DNA of 64,000 nt. Source: Exiguobacterium artemiae 255-15 (GTDB taxonomy: Bacteria > Bacillota > Bacilli > Exiguobacteriales > Exiguobacteriaceae). The translations under genes and the position numbers were made by a program. The notes beneath the pieces are model-generated. The model saw only the letters and a list, made by a program, of their open reading frames with translations, did no database searches and had not been told where the DNA came from. The stretch spans positions 2,940,001 to 3,004,000 of the forward strand of contig NC_010556.1 in NCBI RefSeq assembly GCF_000019905.1, in the 5' to 3' direction. Positions 2,244 through 63,339 of the stretch are shown one piece after another; the first letter of the stretch is position 1; every line of letters starts with the position of its first letter.

Positions 2244-3479
2244 TTGAAACATGATTTGATTCGTCGTTTGACTACATATGCGAAAATCGATACACAGTCT
2301 GACTACGCAAGTACGACCGTTCCGACAACAGACGGACAATGGACGCTCGCTCGTCTGCTTGTTGACGAACTGAAGGAAATTGGCATGAGTGATGTGACCG
2401 TTGATGCAAACGGATATGTCATGGCGACTCTTCCTGCCAATACCGATGCGGATATTCCGACAATCGGATTTTTAGCCCACTTGGATACGGCAACTGATTT
2501 CACGGGAACAAACGTCAATCCGCAAATCGTCGAAGCTTATGATGGAGAAGACTTGGTCCTCAATGCGACACTTCCTGTCATCCTGTCACCAAAGGATTTC
2601 CCAGCACTTAAAAACTACGTCGGACATACGTTGATGACAACAGATGGTACGACATTACTCGGTGCAGATAATAAGGCCGGCATCGCTGAAATCATGACAG
2701 CGATGCATCACCTTATCACCCATCCGGAAATCAAACACGGCCGGATTCGTGTCGCCTTCACACCGGATGAAGAAATCGGGCGCGGCCCGCATCATTTTGA
2801 CGTCGCTGCTTTTGATGCAAAATTCGCCTATACGGTCGATGGAGGTCCGCTCGGTGAACTCGAGTATGAGAGTTTTAATGCCGCTGCTGCCGAAATCATT
2901 TTCCATGGCACGAACGTCCACCCGGGTACGGCAAAAGATAAGATGGTCAATTCGCAAAAACACGCGATGGCTTTCCAGAACCGGTTGCCGGGCGACGAAG
3001 CCCCTGAATTCACGGATGGATTCGAAGGATTCTACCACTTGATTTCGTTTGAAGGTTCGGTCGAAAAAACGACGGTCCAGTACATCATCCGTGATTTTGA
3101 CCGTTCTAAATTCGAAGCCCGGAAACACTTCCTGACAGCTTTGGTCGAAGAATGGAACAAGAAATACGGGGCAGGCAGTGTCGAAATCAAACTAAATGAT
3201 CAATACTACAACATGCGTGAAAAAATCGAACCACACATGGAAATCGTTGATATCGCCCATGCGGCGATGGAATCACGTGGTGTCACACCAATCATCAAAC
3301 CAATTCGTGGCGGGACGGACGGTTCGCAACTGTCGTACATGGGACTCCCGACACCGAATATCTTCACCGGTGGCGAAAATTACCACGGAAAGTTTGAGTT
3401 CATCTCTGTTGATAATATGGTGAAGGCAACGGAAGTCGTTGTGGCAATTGCTGAACGATTCGCTCAGTCAGCTAAATAA
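2244..3479 (+). CDS. pepT: Peptidase T (tripeptide aminopeptidase, M20B)
   Basis: 411 aa, the normal length of PepT. Zinc ligands are visible in FLAHLDTA, in [11 protein letters not shown], in DEEIGRG and in the late [10 protein letters not shown]. The dimerisation-domain stretch around [15 protein letters not shown] is also typical. The enzyme releases the N-terminal residue of tripeptides in the cytoplasm. The start is TTG at 2244, about 10 nt after AGAAAGGA; there is no better ATG. A terminator follows directly, so the gene stands alone. Confidence 0.95.
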
Positions 3480-3493
3480 GACGGTATAACGAA

Positions 3494-3527
3494 AGCAGAT
3501 TCTCGACATGAGAATCTGCTTTTTTTC
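3494..3527 (+). terminator. Intrinsic terminator after pepT
   Basis: AGCAGATTCTC and GAGAATCTGCT form a perfect stem around a short loop, followed by seven T. Confidence 0.9.
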
Positions 3528-3581: not shown

Positions 3582-4454
3582 TTACTTTTCTTCTGTTGTT
3601 GTTTGCTGATCCGGAATCGGTAGTTGAACCATGCTGCCGGATCCGCTGACGAGTGGTGATTTTCCATCCCACTTCTTGACGGCTTCGTACTGAATCATCT
3701 CTTCCGTCAACGTTTTTTGTAGTTCTTTTTGCGCTTTCGCGAGACCCTGCGCTTCAATGAGTCGGGCATCCGCTGCTCCCTTTGCTTCTACGCGCAATCG
3801 TTCTGCTTCTGCTTTCGCAATCGCAAGATCTGTCTTCTTTTTATCCAGCTCTTGTGACGCTTTGACACGCGCATCAATCGCTTCCTGGGTTTTCGCATCC
3901 GGTTTCGGTGCTCCAAGTGCCACGTCTTCGATGATGAAACCAATCTTTTTCACATCTTCGGCAAACTGTGTCTGAATACTCGTCGAGACATTTCCAGACT
4001 GTTCCCCGAATAACTCAAGGACGGTGACTTTCGAAATCTGTTCACGGGACGCATCATAAAGGCGTTGTTTTAAGTAACCGGCTGCAATCTCATCAATTTC
4101 AATCGGACCAAACTTATTAAAGACTTCCGTCACCTGATCCGGTGAAACCGAAAAACTGTACGTAAAGTCGACGACGATGTTTTTCCCGTCCTTTGTTGCG
4201 AGTGTCATGTTGTCGAGCGATTTCGTCTGTGTCCGGATCGGATATTCAGTGACACGTGTGATCGGCGAAACGATATGCCAGCCTTGCGACAGGGTCTCGT
4301 CCTGGACACCGCTTGACGGTTTATAGACGACCCCGACCTGTCCGGGTTCAATTTGTTCGACGATGAATGGTGTCATCGCAAGCAGGGCGACGACGATCAC
4401 ACCTGCGATGATCATCGACGGCCTGATACGTTTTTTCGGTTTGATTTCTCTCAT
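3582..4454 (-). CDS. SPFH/band 7 (prohibitin-like) membrane protein
   Basis: 290 aa. Residues 13-33 form a single N-terminal membrane anchor (IIAGVIVVALLAMTPFIV). A band 7 domain follows (EPGQVGVVYKPSSGVQ... to about residue 190). A long charged helix rich in K/E/A at about 200-260 is the usual oligomerising coiled coil. The C-terminus is hydrophilic. Prohibitin-type proteins form ring or cage scaffolds on the membrane and often modulate proteases; which role applies here is unknown. The ATG overlaps the stop of a 34-codon gene upstream (ATGA), so the two are translationally coupled. Confidence 0.85.
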   Translation of the reverse strand: MREIKPKKRIRPSMIIAGVIVVALLAMTPFIVEQIEPGQVGVVYKPSSGVQDETLSQGWHIVSPITRVTEYPIRTQTKSLDNMTLATKDGKNIVVDFTYSFSVSPDQVTEVFNKFGPIEIDEIAAGYLKQRLYDASREQISKVTVLELFGEQSGNVSTSIQTQFAEDVKKIGFIIEDVALGAPKPDAKTQEAIDARVKASQELDKKKTDLAIAKAEAERLRVEAKGAADARLIEAQGLAKAQKELQKTLTEEMIQYEAVKKWDGKSPLVSGSGSMVQLPIPDQQTTTEEK

Positions 4455-4555
4455 TTTGAGTCTCCTTTATCAATTTTATCTTGGATATACTTATACAGTT
4501 CAATGGCCAGCAAGACGATCAGTGCAAAAAATAACAACGTAAAAAGTGTTGCCAC
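4451..4555 (-). CDS. 34-residue single-pass membrane microprotein coupled to the SPFH gene
   Basis: A GTG start at 4555 follows GAAGGAGGAGGA by about 6 nt, one of the strongest ribosome sites in the window. The product is a hydrophobic segment (ATLFTLLFFALIVLLAI) followed by a charged tail (YKYIQDKIDKGDSK). The TGA stop overlaps the ATG of the SPFH gene by the ATGA arrangement. The shape is one membrane helix with a basic-acidic cytoplasmic tail. I do not recognise the family. Position and coupling suggest a subunit or regulator of the SPFH assembly. It is below the length cut-off of most gene finders. Confidence 0.7.
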   Translation of the reverse strand: MATLFTLLFFALIVLLAIELYKYIQDKIDKGDSK

Positions 4556-4755
4556 GCCGTCCTCCTCCTTCATGAATGTTGTACCTACTCTTACGCTTCA
4601 GATTGGAAAATGTTTCATTTTGTTTAAAACCACGGTTGCTAAATTGTGCAATCCGGTCTAAGATGTAAAGAACTTTGTCCTTGAAACGAAGCGTATCATT
4701 TTGTGGTACACTCGTAACAGCACATCACACACTAGAAACGAGGGTTCATCTCTAT

Positions 4756-6381
4756 ATGATTACAGTACAAAACGTCGGTCTCCGCTTTGCGGACCGTAAA
4801 TTATTCGAAGACGTCAACATCAAGTTCACACCGGGCAACTGCTACGGTCTCATCGGTGCAAACGGTGCCGGTAAATCAACATTCCTTAAAATTCTTGCCG
4901 GTGATATCGAAGCCCAACAAGGAGACGTCATCATCACGCCGGGCGAACGCCTTGGTGTCCTTCGCCAAAACCACTATGAATATGAAGAGTTCCAAGTCAT
5001 CGAAACTGTCATGATGGGTCATAAGCGCCTTTATGAAGTCATGAAAGAAAAAGATGCTATCTATATGAAAGAAAACTTCTCGGACGAAGACGGCATGCGT
5101 GCTGCCGAGCTCGAAGGTGAGTTCGCAGAAATGAACGGATGGGAAGCGGAGTCGGAAGCGGCAATGCTTTTACAAGGTCTCGGCATTAAAGAGAATCTGC
5201 ATACGAAAACAATGGCTGAACTGACAGGCGGAGAGAAAGTTAAAGTCCTGCTTGCCCAAGCCTTGTTTGGTAAACCAGACATTCTGTTGCTTGATGAGCC
5301 TACCAACGGTCTTGATTTGAAAGCCGTTAAATGGCTTGAAGAATTCTTGATCGGGTTTGAAAATACGGTCATCGTCATTTCCCACGACCGTCACTTCCTC
5401 AACAACGTTTGTACGCATATGGCCGATCTCGATTACGGGAAAATCCAACTGTATATTGGAAACTATGATTTCTGGTACGAATCAAGTCAGCTTGCTTCAC
5501 GTATGGCAGGCGACCAAAACAAGAAAAAAGAAGAAAAAATCAAAGAACTTCAAGCCTTCATCGCCCGTTTCAGCTCGAACGCTTCCAAAGCGAAACAGGC
5601 GACATCACGGAAAAAGTTGCTTGATAAAATTACACTCGACGACATCCGTCCGTCGTCACGCCGTTATCCGTTCGTCGGCTTCACACCGGAACGTGAAATC
5701 GGAAACGATCTGTTGATCGTCGACGGCATTTCGAAAACAATCGATGGTGTCAAAGTCCTTGATAATGTCCGTTTCTCGTTAAACAAAACGGATAAAGCCG
5801 TCTTTATCAGCCAAAATGACATCGCGATCACGACACTCTTCAAAATTCTGATGGGTGAGATGGAAGCGGACAGCGGAACATTCAAATGGGGCGTCACGAC
5901 GTCACAATCTTATCTGCCAAAAGATAACTCCGCTTTCTTCGAAGGTTCGGACAAAACGATTCTCGATTGGTTGCGCCAGTATTCGCCGGCTGACGAGAGC
6001 GATACGTTCCTCCGTGGTTTCCTCGGCCGGATGCTCTTCTCCGGTGAAGAAGTCATGAAAAAAGCGTCTGTCTTATCCGGGGGAGAAAAAGTCCGTTGCA
6101 TGTTATCAAAAGCGATGCTCAGCGGCTCAAACGTTCTTGTCCTCGACGATCCGACGAACCACTTGGATCTCGAATCGATCACGGCACTCAACGATGGTTT
6201 GATCGCTTACAAAGGCGCGATGCTCTTCAGTTCGCATGACCATCAGTTCGTTGAAACGATTGCAAACCGGATCATCGAATTGACACCAAACGGTATCGTC
6301 GATAAAGAAACGACATACGATGAATACCTCAACAACGAGTCTGTTCAACAACAATTGTCTACGTTGTACGCAACAAACTAA
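4756..6381 (+). CDS. ABC-F family ATPase (YkpA/YbiT type)
   Basis: 541 aa with two nucleotide-binding domains and no membrane segments. Domain 1 is complete: Walker A GANGAGKST near residue 36, signature LTGGEKVKVLLAQALF, Walker B LLDEPTNGLD. A linker rich in K/R (residues 250-300) precedes domain 2. Domain 2 keeps LSGGEKVRCMLSKA and LDDPTNHLD, but its Walker A position reads SQNDIAITT and lacks the glycines and the lysine. ABC-F proteins act on ribosomes (translation factors or antibiotic protection). The ATG at 4756 begins the conserved MITVQNVGL and follows GAAACGAGGG; an in-frame start further upstream has no ribosome site. Confidence 0.9.
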   Translation: MITVQNVGLRFADRKLFEDVNIKFTPGNCYGLIGANGAGKSTFLKILAGDIEAQQGDVIITPGERLGVLRQNHYEYEEFQVIETVMMGHKRLYEVMKEKDAIYMKENFSDEDGMRAAELEGEFAEMNGWEAESEAAMLLQGLGIKENLHTKTMAELTGGEKVKVLLAQALFGKPDILLLDEPTNGLDLKAVKWLEEFLIGFENTVIVISHDRHFLNNVCTHMADLDYGKIQLYIGNYDFWYESSQLASRMAGDQNKKKEEKIKELQAFIARFSSNASKAKQATSRKKLLDKITLDDIRPSSRRYPFVGFTPEREIGNDLLIVDGISKTIDGVKVLDNVRFSLNKTDKAVFISQNDIAITTLFKILMGEMEADSGTFKWGVTTSQSYLPKDNSAFFEGSDKTILDWLRQYSPADESDTFLRGFLGRMLFSGEEVMKKASVLSGGEKVRCMLSKAMLSGSNVLVLDDPTNHLDLESITALNDGLIAYKGAMLFSSHDHQFVETIANRIIELTPNGIVDKETTYDEYLNNESVQQQLSTLYATN

Positions 6382-9762: not shown

Positions 9763-10401
9763 TTAATATGGTGCTACAAACGTTGATTGTTCACCAGGTG
9801 CTTCTTCTCCGCGGATCCGGTCGTAGAATTTCGCAAGCGTGACGCTGAAATAAGGTCCGACCCATAAGAAGGCGATTCCGATTGTAATTAAACCAAGCAG
9901 GAACCAGCCGATGAATGAAAGAACAAGCATGAAGGCTTCCATCTTATGTCCATCCATCATTTGACGTGACCGGGTGATTGCTTCCAATACACCAATCGAA
10001 GGTTCATCCCGCAAAATGTAGTAAGTCAACATATACGAAAATGATTTGATAATGGCCGGTACAACCAATAACAATGCCCATAGGAACAAGAATATAAATT
10101 GGACGATTGAAAGCAGGACGACTTTTATGAAATATTTATAGGGCTCAAATAAATCACTGATTTTTGTTTGTTCTCCCCGTGCGATAGAAAGTGAGAACCA
10201 GACCCATCCTGCACTAAGTGGGATTAATAAGACCGTTGCAATCAATCCGAGGAAGTCAATCGTTTGGAAAGGTTCGTCATAATCAGACGACAGCAGTTCC
10301 GGAATGACTTGCAGAATTGCGAATAATAAAAACATCAAGACCGTAAAGCCCCAACGACCGCTTAATGCTTCCTTTGCTGATTTTTTTAATTGTGATGACA
10401 T
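9763..10401 (-). CDS. DUF975-family integral membrane protein
   Basis: 212 aa. The N-terminal SSQLKKSAKEALSGRWGF followed by several hydrophobic segments matches the DUF975 family, whose members start with K..A...L.G.W. Five to six membrane helices can be counted (residues 20-45, 60-80, 105-135, 160-195). Function is unknown in the family. The ATG at 10401 lies 9 nt after AGGAGG; an earlier in-frame start would place that site inside the protein. Located between its own terminator and the DUF2325 gene. Confidence 0.8.
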   Translation of the reverse strand: MSSQLKKSAKEALSGRWGFTVLMFLLFAILQVIPELLSSDYDEPFQTIDFLGLIATVLLIPLSAGWVWFSLSIARGEQTKISDLFEPYKYFIKVVLLSIVQFIFLFLWALLLVVPAIIKSFSYMLTYYILRDEPSIGVLEAITRSRQMMDGHKMEAFMLVLSFIGWFLLGLITIGIAFLWVGPYFSVTLAKFYDRIRGEEAPGEQSTFVAPY

Positions 10402-10471
10402 AAATAAGATCCTCCTCAAAATAAGTTCTATCTCTATTTACGGCTAATTAGGAGAGGAGTTTCATCTTTTT

Positions 10472-62142: not shown

Positions 62143-63339
62143 TTAGCTTAAGATATTTTCTTCTGAAACGAGCGTGAATCCGTCGATGACCGTGTCTTCC
62201 TCGACTTCGATCAACAGACATTGTTTGCCGTTGTAATTGACCTGCTTAATGTACTTCAAGTCTTGAGCACTGACGGAGATATTTGCAACTTTCGTATTGA
62301 TTTTAATCGATTTCGCTTCATAGTTCGGGACGATGTTACTCGCCTTCATTTCGTACGCCGTATCATCGATGACCGTCTTAAAGGCACGTTCGACCTGTTC
62401 CGTACTGACGTCTTCGATGCCGCTCGCTTTTAAGACCCGTTCGACTTCTTTGACGTCCAGCATCGGAGTATCTTCCGGCTCGTCTTCCTTTTCGTCTTCT
62501 ACGACGAGCAAGTGATTGACTTCCTCATAGACACCCGCGAGCGTTTTTGAATCGACTGATTCGCCGATGACCAGTTTGACGATCTCTTCAAATACCGCTT
62601 TGTCTTCTTCCGCCGTCACGATCTGATCACCGTTCAGGACATTTTCGATGAACAGCAGGTCTGGTTTATTCGGTTTGCTTGCTGTGTAAAGGACACGGTT
62701 GACGTCCGCCGCATTGTCCGTGAAGCATGGAAATAAAAAGCCGCCAATTGGTGACGCCAGTTTGATGACCGGATTGATCAGCAGGTTCGACTTGAACTCG
62801 AGATCGACATAGTCGAAGACAAGCGACTGTTTCGGCAGTTCCGTCTGGTTGAGACTGCTGAGAATAAACGGTGTCGTATAGACTTCATCGTTCTTATCCA
62901 CTTCCGTCTCATCCGCCTGACGTTTCGTTGTTTTGTAATACTGTCCCCGGATGAACGTGACGACGATATCGTTTTCGTACTGCACGTCCTGGACCATCTT
63001 CAGCGCGATCTGTTGCATCTGCTCCGTCCAGTCTTCCGTCTCTTCCGTGTACAGCCCTTCGTACAACAGTTGTTGCGTATGTCCGGTCGCGCCTTCTTCC
63101 GGCTGCTGGAACTTGACCTCAAACAGCTTGATGTCGAGTTTCCCGGTCAGGACTTTCTTGAAGTTCGCGAGGAACAGTTCCTGTTGCTCGAGTTCAAGAA
63201 AGGCAAACGGTCGGCTTTCCTCATAGAAGATTTCACTCGTTTCTTTGCGGATATATACATTATAAATTTCGTTGATTTTAAGTAGTTCCGAGTCGACCTT
63301 AAAATGGCGACGGATATCACTGATGTCTTGTTTGTTCAT
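62143..63339 (-). CDS. DUF4317-domain protein
   Basis: 398 aa, soluble, acidic. The start NKQDISDIRRHFKVDSELLKINEIYNVYI and YKTTKRQADETEVDKND..., FPCFTDNAADVNRVLYT..., KINTKVANISVSAQDLKYIKQVNYNGKQCLLIEV agree with the DUF4317 family of Bacillota. Function unknown. The Shine-Dalgarno (CAAGGAG) is about 14 nt from the ATG, a long spacing. Confidence 0.85.
   Translation of the reverse strand: MNKQDISDIRRHFKVDSELLKINEIYNVYIRKETSEIFYEESRPFAFLELEQQELFLANFKKVLTGKLDIKLFEVKFQQPEEGATGHTQQLLYEGLYTEETEDWTEQMQQIALKMVQDVQYENDIVVTFIRGQYYKTTKRQADETEVDKNDEVYTTPFILSSLNQTELPKQSLVFDYVDLEFKSNLLINPVIKLASPIGGFLFPCFTDNAADVNRVLYTASKPNKPDLLFIENVLNGDQIVTAEEDKAVFEEIVKLVIGESVDSKTLAGVYEEVNHLLVVEDEKEDEPEDTPMLDVKEVERVLKASGIEDVSTEQVERAFKTVIDDTAYEMKASNIVPNYEAKSIKINTKVANISVSAQDLKYIKQVNYNGKQCLLIEVEEDTVIDGFTLVSEENILS

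Follow-up and report, generated by a model that had tools for sequence, protein, structure and literature searches.

Why does a reading frame of only 34 codons precede the gene for an SPFH protein in Exiguobacterium artemiae 255-15, and does its product take part in the SPFH assembly? To our knowledge, the function of the majority of bacterial SPFH proteins has yet to be established, and the question bears on which small proteins complete SPFH/prohibitin assemblies. It also concerns a class of short genes that are left unnamed by profile libraries such as Pfam and NCBIfam. The window analyzed here is a stretch of 64,000 nucleotides of contig NC_010556.1. We propose that the 34-aa protein would serve a prohibitin-like SPFH assembly under envelope stress as its obligate transmembrane subunit, a reading to which we give a probability of roughly 0.6.

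Organization of the gene pair

The initial annotation had described a strong ribosome site, a GTG start, a single hydrophobic helix, a charged tail and an ATGA in which the short gene and the SPFH gene overlap, and all of these were confirmed from the sequence (Table 1). The product of the short ORF is (GTG)ATLFTLLFFALIVLLAIELYKYIQDKIDKGDSK. The microprotein and SPFH genes are predicted to form a two-gene operon, which is flanked by pepT (plus strand, ending at 3479) and by a divergent ABC-F gene with a conserved start near 4756. In addition, a GC-rich hairpin with a T run lies at 3490-3522 between the convergent pepT and SPFH genes, and it is probably a terminator common to both.

Table 1. 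Features of the microprotein-SPFH gene pair, in positions of the window
Feature	Position	Strand	Basis
Microprotein gene, 34 codons + stop	4451..4555	-	GTG start, one helix, TGA overlapping SPFH ATG
SPFH / Band_7 protein gene, prohibitin type, 290 aa	3582..4454	-	Pfam PF01145, model, fold matches
Microprotein ribosome site AAGGAGG	4564..4570	-	Sequence; comparable sites in relatives
SPFH ribosome site AAGGAG	4462..4467	-	Sequence; within the microprotein's last codons
Start-stop overlap ATGA of both genes	4451..4454	-	Sequence; present too in L195
Predicted sigma-W-type (ECF) promoter TGAAAC-N16-CGTA	4592..4617	-	36 nt upstream of microprotein start

Coding status of the short gene

A doubt raised with the initial annotation was that the SPFH gene might be conserved and the 34 codons not; this doubt was not borne out. 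We found the microprotein ORF in place in all 19 genomes of the genus (that of the analyzed strain included), and its pN/pS, pooled over five pairs of diverged sequences, was 0.19 in the true frame versus 1.19 and 2.37 in the other two frames. In single pairs, the values ranged from 0.04 to 0.35 for the microprotein and from 0.01 to 0.07 for the SPFH gene. These comparisons indicate that the microprotein is selected at the protein level, less tightly than its SPFH neighbor. The start codon is GTG in 4 of the 19 genus genomes and ATG in the rest (ATG replaces GTG in L004, L005 and L007-L018). A mechanical ORF call had given a 40-aa reading from an ATG at 4573; this reading was rejected, since that ATG is not conserved and the GTG position is an ATG in most genus genomes, so the 34-aa form has the right start.

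Among the other genes of the window, only 2 of 52 have near their start a small ORF that is similarly hydrophobic and has a ribosome site (3 of 53 when the microprotein is counted). One control match is a two-helix ORF of 59 aa with a ribosome site, which ends 125 nt upstream of the gene at 62143-63339 (minus strand).

The structural model of the microprotein is one helix (residues 2-32, pLDDT 92). With the 40-aa reading as query, no Pfam domain matched at E 10 or better; an NfeD domain was likewise found neither in that search nor in six relatives. A match of the same reading to the PhrA_Strep signal peptide (NF040904; E 0.0022, 18.2 of 40 bits) was below the cut-off and was rejected as a match to a hydrophobic N-terminus. 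In the PADLOC search for defence systems, neither the microprotein nor the SPFH protein was matched.

The SPFH protein and membrane topology

The larger gene matched Band_7 (PF01145) with 112.2 bits against a cut-off of 23.6 (E 3.7e-32). Its scores against the NCBIfam equivalogs HflK and HflC were far below the cut-offs (26.1 of 159.4 and 26.7 of 134.4 bits, respectively). The monomer model (pLDDT 78) includes a helix at residues 12-27, the SPFH domain and a long coiled-coil helix. The nearest solved chain by sequence was human prohibitin 8rrh_A (E 1e-7), and the nearest solved fold was human prohibitin 9o9z_A (Z 18.7, rmsd 5.6, 206 residues aligned). With its N-terminal helix followed by an SPFH domain, and with prohibitins as the closest solved structures, the modelled protein is of the prohibitin type.

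In all 40 pairs counted, the C-terminal flank of the microprotein helix had more lysine and arginine than the N-terminal flank; for the SPFH helix, the excess was on the N-terminal flank in 32 of the 40 pairs, with 5 ties. Eight rows (L025, L176, L180, L181, L187, L189, L192 and L232) were omitted from this count. In the microprotein of the analyzed strain (L001), however, the residues that follow the helix carry a net charge of -1. According to the positive-inside rule for membrane topology, the charge bias across the pairs predicts that the SPFH domain lies outside the cytoplasmic membrane and that the microprotein and SPFH helices are antiparallel. Furthermore, several SPFH relatives (e.g. 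L165, P1 and IG49) have lipobox-like ends, which agree with an extracytoplasmic SPFH domain.

Distribution in bacteria

The initial annotation had suggested a search for the same short gene upstream of SPFH genes in Bacillales. A genome scan with an SPFH alignment returned 80 loci, distributed over Exiguobacterium, Paenibacillus and Bacillaceae, and a small one-helix ORF with its stop near the SPFH start was present in 80 of 80 (79 at first, and L061 by a widened rule). This widened ORF rule recovered cases in the same frame or with a weak ribosome site, namely L061, L143, L227, L229 and ten Bacillaceae. The small proteins resemble MKVFIGSIIVILLLGFGVWLMLSPSFKRVGDTAYKLKEKLEED... in Bacillaceae and MPFIGGIILIFILAFILWSLMFPLFNKIGSRILKKYNKFKQEEN... 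in Paenibacillus. In two Paenibacillus loci (L143 and L061), the small ORF is intact and the SPFH N-terminus is out of frame, which suggests a damaged SPFH copy; the genome of L143 has an intact copy about 2 kb away.

A class-wide draw gave 22 further SPFH loci at 190 bits or more, 18 with a small ORF and four (L157, L159, L160 and L163) without. Under 190 bits, L165 and L166 had a small ORF, and L164 had none. Meanwhile, none was accepted at the 23 loci of a distant SPFH clade (L023-L030 and L167-L181). The loosest rule gave hydrophobic ORFs at L025, L176, L180 and L181, which were taken as chance, having no common motif and no overlap; L025 and L180 were set to "no" by hand before the tree was built, and L176 and L181 were kept as "yes" there.

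The small ORFs range from 23 aa (L158) to 101-106 aa (six f10 genomes), with 23-59 aa in most lineages, and their stop positions vary between -56 and +50 nt relative to the start of the SPFH gene. The shortest forms (23-24 aa, in L158 and phage PJN02) are almost all helix. Because the stop position varies so widely and the shortest forms are almost only helix, the helix, and not the junction, appears to be the conserved element.

In the sister genus, the SPFH protein was matched in 0 of 19 genomes, and the microprotein had no significant match in any of the 18 genomes searched (best E 0.318). The distance from pepT to the ABC-F gene is 0.6-2.8 kb there, with other genes between, in all four genomes inspected. 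Thus, the microprotein and SPFH genes were lost or gained together between the sister genera.

Phages and viral contigs

SPFH relatives were found in 694 of 50,697 phage records. Among 13 phage records, a one-helix gene or ORF lies directly upstream of the SPFH gene in AR9, in three Staphylococcus types (MSA6 and vBSP-A2 being counted as one type) and in Bacillus phage PJN02; EFDG1, Erwinia Rouille and Javan349 have no small upstream gene. The PJN02 ORF, of 24 aa and with one helix, lies between gyrA and the SPFH gene (L184, about 1369-1441). The claim in the initial annotation that such genes are missed by annotation stands for this form, which is unannotated, and fails for the forms of about 50 aa, for which the annotations of a B. 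velezensis plasmid and of phage AR9 give a hypothetical or membrane protein.

In viral contigs, a first scan found a small ORF at 16 of 17 related loci. Among the viral contigs, L195 has an ORF of 33 aa with the ATGA overlap seen in Exiguobacterium. Of the 25 distinct SPFH rows that a second scan yielded among L220-L265, 12 had a small ORF and 13 had none. The small ORFs of L227 and L229 were added by the widened rule; those of L232 and L236 are doubtful, and that of L232 is probably due to chance. The longer phage and f10 forms may have an added cytoplasmic coiled coil.

Phylogeny of the SPFH proteins and kinship of the small proteins

The phylogenetic tree included 77 SPFH proteins and was built with a quick method, with long branches flagged; rows shorter than 200 aa and rows more than 85% alike had been left out. 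The label "small ORF present" changed 9 times on the tree, compared with 24.5 times in shuffles. A gram-positive clade (support 82) contained 52 rows, 41 labelled with a small ORF (L232 among them) and 11 without. Some members of the SPFH clade lack the small ORF, namely L157, L159, L160, L163, L164, L186, L208 and a small-siphophage group. The Exiguobacterium microprotein gene immediately precedes an SPFH gene that belongs to this clade, with its stop no more than 60 nt from the SPFH start, which is how we define a small one-helix partner. On this tree, the simplest reading would be a single early origin of the small ORF followed by few losses, chiefly in the small siphophages.

The profiles of the Bacillus and Paenibacillus small proteins matched each other and AR9 above all 2000 architecture-matched decoys, and the Bacillus host forms matched phrog_35614 down to E 6.5e-10. 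These scores indicate that the Bacillus, Paenibacillus and phage AR9 small proteins are sequence homologs. The f17 and f39 forms were borderline against the decoys. The Exiguobacterium microprotein was not above 2000 composition-matched decoys in any direction against the Bacillus and Paenibacillus profiles, and it had no match at E 0.01 or better to phrog_35614, phrog_22697, phrog_3667 or phrog_1130. Its suggested kinship, not demonstrable as homology, therefore rests on position, size, topology and the place of its SPFH neighbor in the tree.

It could be argued from these decoy scores that the Exiguobacterium ORF is unrelated to the other small ORFs and arose independently in the same place. 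We consider this unlikely, because the Exiguobacterium SPFH protein falls inside the ORF-bearing clade and its nearest relative in the tree is the SPFH protein of L195, with that locus's similar short ORF. Even so, if proteins alike in size, place and topology had been gained independently, this would imply a shared need for such a protein.

Promoter and stress response

The sequence TGAAAC-N15-17-CGTA, which we take to be the sigma-W consensus, precedes the operon, and SigW is encoded in the same genome (253.1 bits against a cut-off of 243.1); these two findings place the operon in the predicted sigma-W regulon. There are two such sites in the whole window versus 0.42 expected, and 42 in the genome versus 15 for the reversed control pattern. 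Upstream of the small ORFs, the motif was found in 43 of 122 distinct sequences, versus 0.03 expected. By group, it was present in all 16 upstreams from Exiguobacterium, in 27 of the 47 from Bacillaceae, and in none of 22 Paenibacillus, 6 f10, 1 Paenibacillaceae and 30 other or viral upstreams. This count left out L025, L176, L180, L181, L232, every row that lacked a small ORF, and upstreams of less than 80 nt or identical in their last 60 nt. Since the motif is lacking in the latter groups, the predicted link to envelope stress holds for Exiguobacterium and part of Bacillaceae, and not for the whole family. No sigma-70 promoter for the operon was found on the minus strand.

Elsewhere in the genome, one sigma-W-type site lies 36 nt before sigW, and another lies before an operon leading to the second Band_7 protein of the genome; we infer that they are the sigW autoregulatory promoter and a floT-type promoter. 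Directly upstream of the second Band_7 gene, a sigma-W-type site is followed by an ORF of 83 aa and a hydrophobic ORF of 173 aa (L277, 1501-2329), and this locus is probably an NfeD-FloT operon with an extra small gene. The other site in the window (10439-10464, minus strand) lies 20 nt before an ORF for a multi-helix membrane protein of 218 aa (9763-10419, minus strand, TTG start).

Proposed role of the microprotein

The initial annotation had suggested that the microprotein is a partner or anchor of the SPFH assembly. The first suggestion is well supported on comparative grounds, namely by the pairing of the two genes across divergence, by selection on the protein, and by the joint loss or gain between sister genera. 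An anchor in the simple sense is unlikely, because the SPFH protein has a predicted N-terminal helix of its own. In addition, the forms of 23-24 aa, which consist of almost nothing else than the helix, suggest that the protein acts within the membrane and not through a docking tail.

According to our proposal, both proteins would be made together by co-translation and in similar amounts. The SPFH protein would insert so that its N-terminus is inside the cytoplasmic membrane and its SPFH domain outside, and it would form a ring or cage; the microprotein would insert the opposite way, with its N-terminus out and its charged tail in. The microprotein might then pack on the SPFH helix and complete or stabilize the membrane ring. 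Under envelope stress, such an assembly would serve to confine or shield part of the membrane or the proteins there.

SPFH proteins of the HflK/HflC kind bind FtsH, and small regulatory membrane proteins that act on proteases are known. Moreover, structures of E. coli FtsH-HflKC were among the fold matches of our SPFH protein, and the microprotein, which the initial annotation had named as perhaps a protease modulator, could thus be imagined as an adapter that links the SPFH ring to a membrane protease, for instance FtsH. This role is improbable in view of the lack of a protease gene in the operon and the low HflK and HflC scores, and the shortest forms would leave almost nothing outside the membrane for docking.

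Somewhat harder to credit is a membrane-active microprotein, holin-like or toxin-like, that the SPFH cage confines or neutralizes. Its size and topology would fit, its Kayvirus counterpart MbpV is said to resemble holins, and the MbpV-MbpS pair lies near lysis genes in the phage described in the accessible text of PMC7150955. However, the Exiguobacterium gene belongs to a chromosomal operon, with pepT on one side, the ABC-F gene on the other and a stress-type promoter in front, and it matched neither Pfam nor PADLOC.

It is very unlikely that the small ORF serves for translational coupling or as a leader peptide, with amino acids that are irrelevant, as its ATGA overlap and strong upstream ribosome site might suggest, because selection is seen at the protein level in the true frame only, the helix is kept while the overlap geometry varies widely, the SPFH gene has its own ribosome site, and the mRNA shows no unusual folding (z +1.56) and no Rfam family, as for a riboswitch or other RNA leader, over the cut-off.

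Comparison with known systems

The proposed transmembrane subunit can be compared with several known partners of SPFH proteins. In the SPFH-NfeD operons (FloT-YuaF, QmcA-YbbJ and FloA-NfeD), a gene for a membrane protein also lies directly upstream of the SPFH gene, and the solved QmcA-YbbJ complex was among the fold matches of the SPFH protein. However, the partner described here has only 23-59 aa in most lineages, one helix, and no NfeD or other Pfam domain. NfeD is described, in the accessible parts of PMC13086221 and PMC4756111, as aiding localization or assembly. Human PHB1/PHB2, which are the closest solved structures by sequence and fold, share the order of an N-terminal helix and an SPFH domain. 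They are two SPFH proteins, whereas the present pair, known from genes and a monomer model, consists of one SPFH protein and a microprotein that is not of the SPFH type.

In the Kayvirus MbpV-MbpS pair of Staphylococcus phages, a one-helix protein is encoded directly upstream of the SPFH protein with a start-stop overlap, as in Exiguobacterium, but MbpV has 102 aa and a long charged tail. The accessible text of PMC7150955 discusses the adjacency of mbpV and mbpS and finds MbpV holin-like, and MbpV is not treated there as a general partner of SPFH proteins. In the sigma-W-controlled pspA-ydjGHI operon of B. subtilis, an SPFH protein is likewise accompanied by membrane-protein partners; YdjI has no membrane helix and is recruited by YdjG/YdjH, as far as the available portion of PMC8581546 goes, whereas the SPFH protein here has its own helix.

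The small genes upstream of phage SPFH genes are held in PHROG families listed as function unknown or "membrane protein", namely phrog_35614 (AR9 form), phrog_22697 (Sextaecvirus and Sepunavirus forms), phrog_3667 (Kayvirus form) and phrog_1130 (common to the IG49 and 5400 forms, with members that appear two-helix). In the literature searched, with subscription journals and preprints outside its scope, we found no description of a microprotein that generally accompanies prohibitin-like SPFH proteins as their partner. The pairing of an SPFH gene with a membrane partner encoded upstream is already known from NfeD; a microprotein in this general role would be new. A near-obligate partner of 23-59 residues with a stress promoter, in lab-tractable Bacillus and in phages, offers a concrete target.

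A far more tentative idea, which may well prove wrong, is that gram-positive bacteria and the phages that infect them have in common a mobile two-part prohibitin machine, in which an extracytoplasmic SPFH cage needs an antiparallel one-helix microprotein (down to 23-24 residues). Such a machine might be induced by sigma-W in hosts under envelope attack and might protect or remodel the membrane in phage infection.

In phages of gram-negative hosts, a hydrophobic protein of 67-84 aa that looks two-helix is encoded upstream of the SPFH gene of P1, Rhizobium IG49 and Pseudomonas phage 5400 (L189, L192 and L187, respectively; the P1 genes are named upl/plp), and the SPFH proteins of all three have a lipobox-like N-terminus. 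If these are indeed two-helix versions of the partner upstream of SPFH lipoproteins, a small membrane partner would be a general rule for phage-type prohibitins. In PVP-SE1, a similar two-helix-looking gene lies one gene further upstream of the SPFH gene.
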